Positions 4,617 through 13,510 of a stretch of DNA of 29,284 nt are shown piece after piece. The position numbers were made by a program, and so were the translations under genes. Within the stretch, counting starts at the first letter, position 1. Every line of letters begins with the position of its first letter. The stretch comes from a virus: IMG/VR virus record IMGVR_UViG_3300037041_000526, positions 1 through 29,284 of that record; one strand, written 5' to 3'. The notes beneath the pieces were generated by a model. That model searched no databases, was not told where the DNA came from, and saw only the letters and a list, made by a program, of their open reading frames with translations.

Positions 4617-4712
4617 ATGAAGAACAAACCACATACCGCCCCAATGGGAACGTACCTGCGGACACAGGTGCAAGTACCTGCGGGGCGTTTCTTTTGCCAT
4701 GACGCGAGATAG
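4617..4712 (+). CDS. Possible 31-residue leader peptide
   Basis: An open frame of 31 codons runs through the structured leader of the replication operon and ends 14 nt inside the next gene. The product is basic and ends in AGRFFCHDAR. The frame covers both GTACCTGCGG repeats and the terminator-like stem, so its translation would change which hairpin forms. It may be a regulatory leader peptide or a chance frame. The start context (ACAGCG-ATG) is not especially good. Confidence 0.3.
   Translation: MKNKPHTAPMGTYLRTQVQVPAGRFFCHDAR
4637..4695 (+). promoter_or_regulatory. Structured leader with competing hairpins
   Basis: CGCCCC (4637-4642) can pair with GGGGCG (4682-4687), followed by TTTCTTTT, a terminator-like arrangement. 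Inside it, GTACCTG (4652-4658) pairs with CAGGTGC (4665-4671, one G-T pair). The same CAGGT (4665-4669) can instead pair with the downstream ACCTG (4676-4680). The direct repeat GTACCTGCGG (4652-4661 and 4674-4683) creates this choice. The layout suggests an attenuator or a switch just before the replication initiator. Confidence 0.4.
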
Positions 4713-5499
4713 CATAATCATCTACCGCAGCTGGTACGAGGCGATCAAGGAACTTGACGCTGATGTGAAGGTCTCGCTGTACGAGGCGATCATCCACTAC
4801 GGGCTGAACCAGGAAGAGCCGAAGCTGCATGGCATCGCACAGGTCGTGTGGCAACTAATCAAGCCGAACGTCGACGCGAACTATCGGAAGTGGGAGAACG
4901 GGCAGAAGGGAGCGCAGCACGGTGGCAAGGGAGGAAGACCCAAGAAACCCCAAGGAAACCCCACCGAAACCCCACAGGGGATTGAAGTCGAAACCCCAAG
5001 AAAACCCCAACGAAACCCCAAGCGAACCCCCAATGTAAATGTTAATGTAAATGAGAATGAGAATGTAGATGAGAATGTAAAGGAACAAGTGAGTCAAATT
5101 GAATGGCCCGCATGGGCAGGTCCGAACGTCTTGAAGACTTGGAAAGAGTTCAAGGCCTATCGACTCACAACGCATCGGGCCAAGTACAAGTCGAGCAGCA
5201 CAGAGCAGCACGCGGTGAACCTGCTTGCCAAGTATTACACGAAGGGCGAAGAATGCTTTGATGGTCTTAACCTTGCAATGGCGAAGGGATGGAGATTCCC
5301 TGTTGACCCGAAAGACCTTGCGCCGAAGCAGCCCAACGGCAAGCCATTCGAAGTAACCACCGAAGACAAGATGAGCGAGCAGAAGAGAATCCGGCTGGAG
5401 ATCGAAGAACGGTACGGCATCGAACCAGGTGGAGCAATCACGAAGGACATGGTGCCGAGAGAACAATGGGCGGTGATGGGCATGGATAAAATGATCTGA
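4699..5499 (+). CDS. Replication initiator / replisome organiser (DUF6291-type N-terminus)
   Basis: This 266-residue protein has three parts. Residues 1-80 match the N-terminal domain of phage replisome-organiser-like proteins (SIIIYRSWYEAIKELDADVK, YEAIIHYGLN, WQLIKPNVDANYRKWENG, ending GGRPKK). A low-complexity linker (about 82-131) is rich in Pro, Asn and Val and is encoded by DNA repeats. A helical C-terminal domain with WKEFKAYRLTTHRAKYKS and GWRFPVDP would contact DNA or helicase. The DnaB-type helicase starts 2 nt after the stop, supporting a role as origin binder and helicase loader. The iterons lie within its own coding sequence, as in lambda O. Confidence 0.78.
   Translation: MTRDSIIIYRSWYEAIKELDADVKVSLYEAIIHYGLNQEEPKLHGIAQVVWQLIKPNVDANYRKWENGQKGAQHGGKGGRPKKPQGNPTETPQGIEVETPRKPQRNPKRTPNVNVNVNENENVDENVKEQVSQIEWPAWAGPNVLKTWKEFKAYRLTTHRAKYKSSSTEQHAVNLLAKYYTKGEECFDGLNLAMAKGWRFPVDPKDLAPKQPNGKPFEVTTEDKMSEQKRIRLEIEERYGIEPGGAITKDMVPREQWAVMGMDKMI
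4944..5079 (+). repeat. Iteron array and AT-rich block: probable replication origin
   Basis: Exact copies of GAAACCCCA start at 4944, 4955, 4966, 4990 and 5012, with single-mismatch copies at 5001 and 5024. The spacing is 11 bp within each group (4944/4955/4966 and 4990/5001/5012). The copies are read in all three codon phases, so the repeat is kept at DNA level and not for a peptide. They are followed directly by eight hexamers of the AATGTA/AATGAG type (5032-5079), 25 percent GC and without any C on this strand. An initiator-binding array beside an easily melted block, inside an initiator gene, is the classic layout of a phage origin. Confidence 0.65.
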
Positions 5500-5501
5500 C
5501 G

Positions 5502-6785
5502 ATGGAACTGATACCAACAGACGTTGAACAGATAGTGATTGGTCAGATACTTCTTGACCATTCGGTGATGTCTACTGCTGCACAGATATTAAGGGCAGAG
5601 CATTTCGGGAACGACGAATGCCGCGAAGCCTACGAAGCCTGTCTTTCGGTGTGGCGCGGAGGAACTGGAGTGGACCTGCTGACCATCGCTGTGCAGTTAC
5701 AGCGAGAGCAGAGCGCAGGAATCGGAGAGACAATGGCGAAGATGGTCGGCTGGACGATGAGAGTATCAGCACCGAGGAACTTCGAAGCACACGCTACAAT
5801 CATTCGTGAGTGCTACGCGTCGAGAATTCTAAAGGATGCTGGCGAGCAGCTGGTTCGTGGAACCATCGAAGGGAAGGAATACACGGAACTGATTGCACCT
5901 GCAACGCGGGCATTGGCAAAGGCATCGATGGCGGAAGACAAGCCTGACGTCAACGCAGGAACACGGGCGTTTGAACTGATGAACAGCAGCGACAGACCTT
6001 CGCCTACTTACCTACAAGTCGCTGGATTGGATTCGCTGGTGTGGATCCTTCCGGGGAATGTGGTGGCGATTCGTGCCGACCCTGGAGTAGGCAAGACGGC
6101 GTTCGTTCTTTCGGTGGTGATGAATCTGATGCCAAGAATCAAACCTTGGTTCGTCTCACTTGAGATGCCAGCGGATGAACTGATCAAGAGGGCGTTGTGT
6201 CAGATAGCGATGGTAGACATTCAGTCCGTGATGGTGGACCGGATGACAGCACAGGAGCGCAACAGACTGGCACAGGCAGCGTCGAACTACGCTGATATAC
6301 TTGGCACGCTGGACATCGACGATAGTGGAAGCATGACCATTGATGAGTTCGCAGCCAAGGCTGAGAACAGAGTGAAGAACGGTGCAGGTCTCATCGTAGT
6401 AGACTACGCTCAACTGATGAGCGCAGATAGAAAGCTATACACCAACAAAGTTCAAGAACTGGAAGCGATATCGATGGGCATCCGCTCGACAGCAAGGAAG
6501 CTGAACGTGCCTATTCTTCTGATCGTCCATGTCAACAAACAAGGCGAAGACCACGGCACGATTCAGTTCGAGAAAGATGCTCACGTCAGGATGCACCTGT
6601 CGCGTGATGCTGATCAGATGACCATCGATGTGCTGAAGAATCGAAACGGAAGACCAGGCAAGATCACTACACCTTGCATGATGCGTTACGGCATCGTCGG
6701 CAGGAGCAGCCCGCCAAGCTGGGCGCAAGCTGATGACGAGTTCAACACGACACCACATCCGGACCGGAATCACACACCATTCTAA
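5502..6785 (+). CDS. dnaB: Replicative DNA helicase, DnaB family
   Basis: The protein has 427 residues. The N-terminal domain (about 1-105) begins with the DnaB-type VEQIVIGQILLD helix and includes LRAEHFGNDECREAY. The RecA-like motor carries Walker A RADPGVGKTAF (191-201), SLEMPADEL (219-226), Walker B LIVVDYAQLM (297-306), IVHVNKQ (341-347) and KNRNGRPGK (379-387), the DnaB order. It unwinds the phage fork as a hexamer. It starts 2 nt after the initiator gene. The C-terminus (about 395-427) is Pro- and His-rich and is probably disordered. Confidence 0.93.
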   Translation: MELIPTDVEQIVIGQILLDHSVMSTAAQILRAEHFGNDECREAYEACLSVWRGGTGVDLLTIAVQLQREQSAGIGETMAKMVGWTMRVSAPRNFEAHATIIRECYASRILKDAGEQLVRGTIEGKEYTELIAPATRALAKASMAEDKPDVNAGTRAFELMNSSDRPSPTYLQVAGLDSLVWILPGNVVAIRADPGVGKTAFVLSVVMNLMPRIKPWFVSLEMPADELIKRALCQIAMVDIQSVMVDRMTAQERNRLAQAASNYADILGTLDIDDSGSMTIDEFAAKAENRVKNGAGLIVVDYAQLMSADRKLYTNKVQELEAISMGIRSTARKLNVPILLIVHVNKQGEDHGTIQFEKDAHVRMHLSRDADQMTIDVLKNRNGRPGKITTPCMMRYGIVGRSSPPSWAQADDEFNTTPHPDRNHTPF

Positions 6786-11046: not shown

Positions 11047-11774
11047 TAGTGACAACAGGGACCGGACTAACATCATGCCTATCGGTCAGGCTGCACGATG
11101 CTCACACCTACGCAAGGTATCACGGCTACTGGCCGAATGAAATCGACAGCAGCAAGCAGTTCGACATTTACAAGGTGAACCCATCAGAGCGCATTGACAC
11201 GCTCCTGCTTGGTGACTACAAGCAGCCAAGCATCAACCCAACTGGTTATGACCACGGCTGGCAGTACGGATGGTACGACGAGATTGACTTAGGAAACCTT
11301 TCACGGATTGCGATCGATGTCTGCCGACCATCGAACAACGTTCTCTCACAAGCAGCAGAGTACAGGAACAACATCGGCGATGCGACCTGTGTGATCTACA
11401 GGGGCAACGACAAAGCGAAAGAAATCGCGCCGATTGACTACAGCACAGCAATCGAAGCAGCATCGTCCATAGGCGGACCCTTCTTCGTGCAGACGGATGA
11501 ACAAGAGTTCTTGGAAGCATTCCTCAAAGCACATCCGAACACGGGCTACACCGACGAACTGCCGAGGATCCATAAGAACCATGACAAGTACGTGATGCCT
11601 GTGAATCGTAGTACCTTCGCTATTAAGTTCAACGCCATGCTGTGGGCGTTGGGCCAAGCTAACAAGCTGTTGATCACGACAGGGAACACGGGCATATGGC
11701 CTGTCCTTTATCGTGGGCATACGAACAGAGTTTGGCAGTTACACGGACAGCATCAGACCTGGAAGAAGATATGA
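11043..11774 (+). CDS. Glycosyltransferase, fucosyltransferase-like
   Basis: The protein has 243 residues. CVIYRGNDKAKEIAP is a variant of the H-x-R-R-x-D-K donor-binding block of GDP-fucose transferases (GT11/GT23 type), followed by PFFVQTDEQEFLEAF and, near the end, NKLLITTGNTGIWPVLYRG. The N-terminal part SVRLHDAHTYARYHG is less typical. It is coupled to the GT2 gene by ATGA. The family call is moderate; a different nucleotide-sugar transferase is possible. Confidence 0.55.
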   Translation: MIVTTGTGLTSCLSVRLHDAHTYARYHGYWPNEIDSSKQFDIYKVNPSERIDTLLLGDYKQPSINPTGYDHGWQYGWYDEIDLGNLSRIAIDVCRPSNNVLSQAAEYRNNIGDATCVIYRGNDKAKEIAPIDYSTAIEAASSIGGPFFVQTDEQEFLEAFLKAHPNTGYTDELPRIHKNHDKYVMPVNRSTFAIKFNAMLWALGQANKLLITTGNTGIWPVLYRGHTNRVWQLHGQHQTWKKI

Positions 11775-11932
11775 GATACATCGCAGCCCCTTTGGCTATC
11801 ATCATCGCCATCATGGGCGTGATCGTCTTACTGCCCGCCCTGCCGTTCATCGCCTGTGCTGGCATCTTCCTGGTCATTGCCGCTGGATTCGCGGAGATCA
11901 GCAAACGAAAGAAGGGAAATACCAACGCGTGA
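11771..11932 (+). CDS. Tiny membrane protein in the sugar island
   Basis: The protein has 53 residues from ATG 11771 (ATGA overlap with the previous gene). It has two hydrophobic stretches, APLAIIIAIMGVIVLLP and PFIACAGIFLVIAAGF, joined by a short turn, and a basic tail EISKRKKGN. The stop shares its last base with the next start (TGATG at 11930-11934). It could anchor a glycan enzyme at the membrane or be an unrelated small membrane protein. Confidence 0.6.
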   Translation: MRYIAAPLAIIIAIMGVIVLLPALPFIACAGIFLVIAAGFAEISKRKKGNTNA

Positions 11933-12663
11933 TGAAAGTACCAACAGGAAAGCTGAAGCCGAACCCATCGAACCCACGCATCCTGCGCGACGAGAAGTTC
12001 CTCAAGCTGAAGGCAAGCATTGAATCGTTCCCCGATATGCTCAACAAGCGGCCTATCGTGGCCGTGACCGACACCGATGGCAAGTACATGGTGATCGGCG
12101 GGAACATGAGGCTGCGGGCCTGTCAAGATCTGAAGCTGAAGGAAGTGCCAATCATCCTGGCTGACGAATGGACGGAAGAGCAGCGCCTGGAATTCATCAT
12201 CAAGGACAACGTGGGCTTCGGGGAATGGGACTGGGACCAACTGGCGAACGAATGGGACGCTGGCAAGTTGGAGGCGTGGGGACTGGACGTGCCGAACCTT
12301 GATGACGAGGACGATACCTACACGAAGAAGATTGAAGCACCGCTGTATGAACCGAAAGGGGCCAAGCCGAGCGAGGCTGAACTATACGATACACAGAAGT
12401 GCGATGAGTTGATCAAGCAGGTCAACGAAACCAAAGGGCTAACGGATATCGAGAAGCGATTCCTGATTGCAGCAGCCAAACGACACATCGTCTTTGACTA
12501 CGAGATGATTGCTGAGTTCTATGCTCATTCGTCCGAGCAAGTGCAGGAACTGATGGAGCGTTCCGCGCTGGTGATCATTGACTTCTCGCAAGCGATTGAA
12601 GAGGGATATGTCAAGTTGAGCAAAGACCTGGTTCAACAATACGGGGAGGAATATGGCAATTGA
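11932..12663 (+). CDS. ParB/sulfiredoxin-domain protein of modification islands
   Basis: The protein has 243 residues. The ParB/Srx N-terminal domain shows KLKPNPSNPRIL, KLKASIESFPDML, RPIVAV and MVIGGNMRLRACQDL (G-G-x-x-R). A middle linker precedes a helical C-terminal domain with LTDIEKRFLIAAAKRHIVF, DYEMIAEFYAHSSEQVQELM and ALVIIDFSQAIEEGYVKL. There is no helix-turn-helix as in partition ParB. I recall this domain layout next to TAGT glycosyltransferases in phage operons, which is what follows here (11-bp overlap). ParB/Srx domains bind nucleotides, so a role in base modification is plausible. Confidence 0.78.
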   Translation: MKVPTGKLKPNPSNPRILRDEKFLKLKASIESFPDMLNKRPIVAVTDTDGKYMVIGGNMRLRACQDLKLKEVPIILADEWTEEQRLEFIIKDNVGFGEWDWDQLANEWDAGKLEAWGLDVPNLDDEDDTYTKKIEAPLYEPKGAKPSEAELYDTQKCDELIKQVNETKGLTDIEKRFLIAAAKRHIVFDYEMIAEFYAHSSEQVQELMERSALVIIDFSQAIEEGYVKLSKDLVQQYGEEYGN

Positions 12664-13510
12664 CTTTGCGGTATTCATACTGACGCACGGCCGTCCCGAT
12701 AACGTCATAACCTTCAAGACGTTAAAGCAGCAGGGATATACTGGTGCCGTATATCTGATAGTGGACAACGAGGATAGTGCAACAGATGAATACGTGCAAC
12801 GTTTCGGGAAGGATAACGTCATCGTATTTGATAAGAAGGCCGAAGCAGACCAGGTAGACGAGGGCAACAACTTCGATGAGCGCAAGACCATTATCTACGC
12901 TCGTAACGCTTCGTTTAGAATAGCCAAGGAATTAGGCGTACGTCGATTCATACAACTGGACGATGATTACCAGTTCTTCGAGTGGAGGATGGAACCAGGT
13001 ATGCACAAGGTGCAACAACTGGACAAAGTATTCGCAGCGATGGGGGAGTTGTACGATGCCGCACCAATCGTATCGTTGGCATTCGCACAGGGCGGAGACT
13101 TCATCGGGGGAACCAACAGCAAGTCTTTCACAGAAGCGAAGCTGAAGCGCAAGTGCATGAACTCGTTCATCTGCTCAAACGAAAGACCGTTTCGATTCAT
13201 CGGGGCAATGAACGAAGACGTGAACACCTACACGACCTTGGCAAGTAGGGGCGCTCTGTTCTTCACGATGCCGCTCGTATCACTAACGCAGAAGGCTACG
13301 CAGTCGCAAGCCGGAGGCATCAGCGATATGTATCTGCGCTTCGGAACCTATTGCAAGGCATTCACTACCGTGATGATGATGCCTTCATGCGTCCAGGTGG
13401 CGATGATGGGCGATAAGCACAAGCGACTGCACCATCAGATACGGTGGAGGAACTGCGTGCCAGTAATTTTGCACGAGCGATTCTGCAAGCGATTAGGAAC
13501 AAACAAATAA
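12653..13510 (+). CDS. TET/JBP-associated glycosyltransferase (TAGT family)
   Basis: The protein has 285 residues, full length for the family. Blocks in order: FILTHGRPDNVITFKTLKQQ (8-27), GYTGAVYLIVDNED (28-41), IIYARNASFRIAKELG (80-95), FIQLDDDYQFF (99-109, metal/nucleotide site), FAQGGDFIGG (144-153), MNEDVNTYTTLASRG (186-200), TQSQAGGISDMYLRFGTY (216-233) and HKRLHHQIRW (256-265). TAGT enzymes are predicted DNA base glucosyltransferases, related to the enzyme that makes base J. A GGGGAGGA sequence lies just before the ATG. No hydroxylase or hydroxymethylase gene is visible in the window to make the acceptor base. Confidence 0.82.
   Translation: MAIDFAVFILTHGRPDNVITFKTLKQQGYTGAVYLIVDNEDSATDEYVQRFGKDNVIVFDKKAEADQVDEGNNFDERKTIIYARNASFRIAKELGVRRFIQLDDDYQFFEWRMEPGMHKVQQLDKVFAAMGELYDAAPIVSLAFAQGGDFIGGTNSKSFTEAKLKRKCMNSFICSNERPFRFIGAMNEDVNTYTTLASRGALFFTMPLVSLTQKATQSQAGGISDMYLRFGTYCKAFTTVMMMPSCVQVAMMGDKHKRLHHQIRWRNCVPVILHERFCKRLGTNK

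Follow-up and report, generated by a model that had tools for sequence, protein, structure and literature searches.

The DNA analysed here, hereafter the window, is a stretch of 29,284 nucleotides from a virus. Its plus strand carries a gene of the DUF6291 family (PF19808; positions 4699-5499, Pfam E 2.7e-22), which encodes a protein of 266 residues, and next to it a gene for a DnaB-type replicative helicase (5502-6785, plus strand; PF03796 E 1.4e-31, PHROG 19 E 2.5e-55). The DUF6291 protein scored 79.1 bits against PF19808, where the Pfam gathering cut-off is 27.2, and is therefore a member of the family. In the AlphaFold model, residues 1-75 are helical with pLDDT values of 90-98, the linker is disordered, and helices are found at the C-terminus. 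Just ahead of the linker, the N-terminal domain is followed by a basic tail, ENGQKGAQHGGKGGRPKK (4894-4947, plus strand). The DNA of the linker contains a series of short direct repeats (iterons) and an AT-rich tract. In the non-coding DNA just 5' of the gene, at 4652-4683, two exact copies of GTACCTGCGG lie 22 nt apart and may be an operator.

A preliminary description, made from the sequence, had taken the gene to encode a replication initiator. It does look like one: the C-terminal domain of the DnaD-type phage replisome organisers ends 6 of 65 DUF6291 homologues, and DnaB or Toprim-DnaB / primase-helicase genes adjoin the DUF6291 gene in the window and in several relatives. The window protein itself matched neither DnaD model (PF07261 / TIGR01446), and its C-terminus gave no match in Pfam. 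Viral matches of the N-terminal domain were mostly DUF6291 proteins, some of them labelled replisome organiser. Searches of the PDB by sequence and by fold, with the full protein and with the N-terminal domain, returned no significant match, so that DNA binding by the putative initiator is an inference. A literature search on DUF6291 found no paper.

Iterons and AT-rich tract in the window

Seven GAAACCCCA-type copies were located in the linker, five exact and two with one mismatch, at the positions first described. Iterons 1-3 (4944-4974, plus strand) are copies of GAAACCCCA starting at 4944, 4955 and 4966, and iterons 4-7 (4990-5032, plus strand) start at 4990, 5001 (AAAACCCCA), 5012 and 5024 (GAACCCCCA). 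The start-to-start spacings are 11, 11, 24, 11, 11 and 12 nt, which agrees with the earlier account of two groups with 11-bp spacing. The copy starts fall in codon phases 2, 1, 0, 0, 2, 1 and 1 of the open reading frame, so that every one of the three phases is used, as had also been claimed. No exact GAAACCCCA occurs elsewhere in the 29 kb, and no other 11/22-nt repeat of the window comes near the linker block, which scored 29 versus 5 for the runner-up. When the protein was held fixed and the codons were redrawn from the phage's own usage, five exact 9-mers appeared in none of 20,000 shuffles, and six 9-mers with at most one mismatch in three of the 20,000.

The CCCC-ACA-GGGG dyad noted earlier at 4970-4980 is present in the sequence, but it is not a separate element. 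It results from an inverted iteron, GGGGATT (4977-4983, minus strand), which forms an AAACCCC-ACA-GGGGATT dyad with the third direct copy. The same geometry recurs in relatives, in which the inverted copy lies 10 nt after a direct copy, the next direct copy follows 13-14 nt on, and the pair reads as NPLGV, NPIGV or TPEGI. The 24-nt phase break is therefore a shared building block. Inverted copies were found in 11 of 38 AAACCCC-type linkers.

The AT-rich hexamers described after the iterons are there as well: eight AATGTA-like hexamers fill 5032-5079 (plus strand) and code NVNVNVNENENVDENV. This tract holds the minima of duplex stability in the 29 kb for windows of both 40 and 50 bp, and is probably a DNA unwinding element. 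Within it, all seven Asn codons are AAT, whereas all ten Asn codons elsewhere in the gene are AAC. The cumulative GC skew of the window climbs steadily and does not turn near 5000, and is therefore uninformative as a test for an origin.

Selection on the linker DNA in relatives

Two scans yielded about 160 DUF6291 loci from phages and prophages, about a hundred of them distinct; further relatives, from Riemerella and Nitratiruptor phages, came from phage records. In 72 non-redundant linkers, base identity peaked at lags of 11, 22, 33 and 44 nt, with z values of 14.3, 15.6, 8.7 and 7.6 above protein-preserving shuffles, and the lags of 11, 22 and 44 nt are out of codon phase. The peaks were reproduced in the viral set, in the genome set and in each iteron class, and loci without a recognised iteron showed no 11-nt peak. 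The periodicity was also significant in single loci (44/67). Neighbouring copies were most often spaced by 11 nt (187 cases), then by 12 (31) and 10 (28), and all three phases were used in 53 of the 88 loci having three or more copies. The density of AAACCCC was 43 per kb in linkers versus 0.07 per kb in the rest of the loci. The three closest relatives showed no change in the cores of the seven direct copies; of eight changes, seven lay in spacers (Fisher p 0.006).

The comparison of homologues proposed in the preliminary description supported its interpretation when it was run: the DNA repeat is retained, although its copy number, its phase and even the iteron itself vary, whereas the peptide sequence drifts. 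The linker repeat, consisting of tandem 7-9 bp iterons 11 bp (about one helical turn) apart, is under selection at the level of DNA, not of protein. The earlier suggestion that the linker peptide is a by-product of DNA constraint is supported by the failure of the protein-preserving shuffles to give the periodicity.

This failure also bears on another explanation, in which selection acts on the protein, a disordered linker rich in Pro and Asn whose peptide motif is periodic, and the DNA repeats follow from codon bias. The linker is indeed predicted to be disordered, and its Asn-x-Asn tract keeps one reading frame. The shuffles, however, preserve the protein without reproducing the period, the copies occur in all codon phases, and three iterons give three unrelated peptide patterns with a single 11-nt period. 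The frame of the tract can be explained by direct reading, because the second frame has a stop codon and the third gives Cys-Lys. We therefore regard selection on the peptide as highly improbable. A Lys-Cys repeat in one locus (L155) was considered as an out-of-frame tract and was dropped; the gene of this locus may be frameshifted.

Neutral tandem duplication by replication slippage could also produce repeats, and the 33-nt repeats of some relatives (e.g. L020, L088, L144) resemble recent duplications. A single 11-nt step, however, shifts the frame and would break the gene. Moreover, the motif is retained from copy to copy although the spacers vary (within-locus identity about 0.3-0.8), with the caveat that the identity of the cores is partly by construction, and inverted copies recur at fixed spacing. 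Slippage is thus also a highly improbable source of the repeats.

The AT-rich tract lies 3' of the iterons in all 64 of 64 loci. Its codon usage recurs across loci, with an AAT:AAC ratio of 492:43 in the tracts versus 57:129 in the iteron blocks. Six DUF6291 genes (L134, L145, L146, L147, L148 and L156) have neither an iteron linker nor an Asn tract, and the origin of these loci, if any, lies elsewhere than in the linker. Most of them come from genomes of Muribaculaceae and other Bacteroidales.

Iteron classes and the basic tail

The iterons of the relatives fall into classes that share one 11-nt period: AAACCCC (33 loci), AAACCNAA (30 loci) and AAGCAAA (17 loci). Read in three frames, AAACCCC gives Lys-Pro, Asn-Pro or Thr-Pro, AAACCNAA gives Lys-Pro-Asn, Asn-Gln or Thr-Lys, and AAGCAAA gives Lys-Gln, Ser-Lys or Glu-Ala, in each case matching the linker peptides seen.

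The iteron class is tied to the basic tail that follows the N-terminal domain. An insert, G-[AG]-x-[HYF]-G-x-x, precedes GGRP in the tail of 33/33 AAACCCC loci, one of which was missed by the pattern and assigned by eye, versus 0/47 loci of the other classes; the tail of the window protein has this insert. GGRP is absent from the tail in 16 of 17 AAGCAAA loci. This correspondence suggests that the tail reads the iteron. Since tail and iterons adjoin in the DNA, it is likely that they are inherited together as one cassette. The tree of the core domain had too few supported branches to show many independent origins of the link between tail and iteron. We propose, tentatively and at somewhat less than even confidence, that the DUF6291 proteins form a widespread family of phage initiators whose iteron specificity is determined by the short basic tail, and that the adjacent tail and iterons are exchanged as one cassette. 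If this is true, such an exchange would let phages switch origin specificity with the rest of the initiator unchanged. The link between tail and iteron also points to a readable protein-DNA recognition code.

A proposed origin inside the DUF6291 gene

Since it is the DNA pattern and not the protein that is conserved in relatives, genome replication in the phage very probably begins in the linker, which would be a theta-type replication origin inside its own putative initiator gene. The N-terminal domain and the tail would bind to the iterons on a single helix face, and the assembly of the protein there would melt the AT-rich tract. The C-terminal domain, together with the neighbouring DnaB, might then load the helicase. 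The Pro/Asn/Val linker would be whatever the DNA happens to encode.

The main competing explanation is an internal operator or copy-control site: the repeats would then be bound by the DUF6291 protein or by another regulator, without being a replication start. Arrays outside the linker are relevant here. In one locus (L121:2380-2456), a non-coding 11-nt array of AACCAAAGTAT, of the same class as the linker iterons, lies just 5' of the DUF6291 start codon, as expected of an autoregulatory operator. In another (L162:502-556), a non-coding minus-strand array of AGCAAGTAGTG lies upstream of the gene, and the linker has no iterons but keeps the Asn tract. For these two cases, in which the arrays are non-coding, protein-level explanations fail. 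Across the loci, however, the upstream 300 bp showed no overall enrichment of iterons (0 for AAACCCC), whereas the linker is nearly always enriched. An operator, moreover, does not need an adjacent AT-rich melting tract, yet such a tract is always found 3' of the iterons. An operator or copy-control role in place of an origin therefore seems unlikely.

Other elements near the genes vary between loci. The array of L121 adjoins two DnaA-box-like TGTGGATAA sites; the only other DnaA box near iterons was a single one in L085, so that these boxes are not a general feature. A second array of the same class was found at the start of the open reading frame in L037. Together with the non-coding arrays of L121 and L162, likewise same-class, it adds to the case for the origin reading. 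Downstream of the DUF6291 gene of L140 (4310-4375), CAGTGGTTTG repeats lie about 22 nt apart; their core, GGTTT, corresponds to the AAACC core of the iterons read on the opposite strand.

The proposed arrangement resembles known origins. In phage lambda, and also in the O genes of Stx phages, iterons lie in the middle of the O gene beside an AT-rich tract, and the O protein has an N-terminal DNA-binding domain and a C-terminal partner domain with a flexible linker between them (PMC6022878, PMC7466680). The DUF6291 linker is similar in that iterons lie inside a putative initiator gene, with an AT-rich tract adjoining and a flexible linker encoded. The lambda iterons, however, are 18-19 bp long with hyphenated dyad symmetry, whereas those of DUF6291 measure 7-9 bp and are arranged head to tail, with one in every 11 bp. 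Homology between DUF6291 and lambda O was not detectable, and Pfam gave DUF6291 only. In SPP1, oriL has direct repeats and an AT-rich unwinding element within gene 38, which encodes the origin-binding protein, and helicase genes follow (PMC6316719). The DUF6291 locus shares with it the repeats and AT-rich element in the gene of a putative initiator and the helicase gene next to it. It differs in protein family, and an 11-nt period and coding in three frames are not described in the text consulted (PMC6316719). Lambda ori and SPP1 oriL already share this layout, so that placing an origin inside an initiator gene is not a novel idea. Our literature searches found no description of the DUF6291 family, of iterons spaced by one helical turn and coded in three frames, or of iteron classes linked to the tail.

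Replisome organisers of the PF09681 family were considered as a second family with the same device. The 11-nt pattern was absent from those sampled, and the device is therefore not universal; this negative comparison, and no other, rests on a probe that was a hand-typed, consensus-like domain sequence of a bacteriophage protein.

With the origin reading, a large family that occurs in phages and prophages of Bacteroidota, Clostridia, Campylobacterota and others would gain a function open to testing. Its unusual KP/NP/TP and NVNVN linkers would be accounted for as DNA signals that are translated, and the origin could be marked from sequence alone in many uncultured phages. The linker also offers a clean natural case of DNA constraint dictating protein sequence.

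Two further genes of the window are worth mentioning. The gene at 12653-13510 had a strong PHROG match to beta-glucosyl-HMC-alpha-glucosyltransferase (E 1.3e-68), which suggests that the phage DNA is glucosylated or otherwise modified. Adjoining it, at 11713-12663, is a gene for a ParB-like / DNA methyltransferase-type protein.
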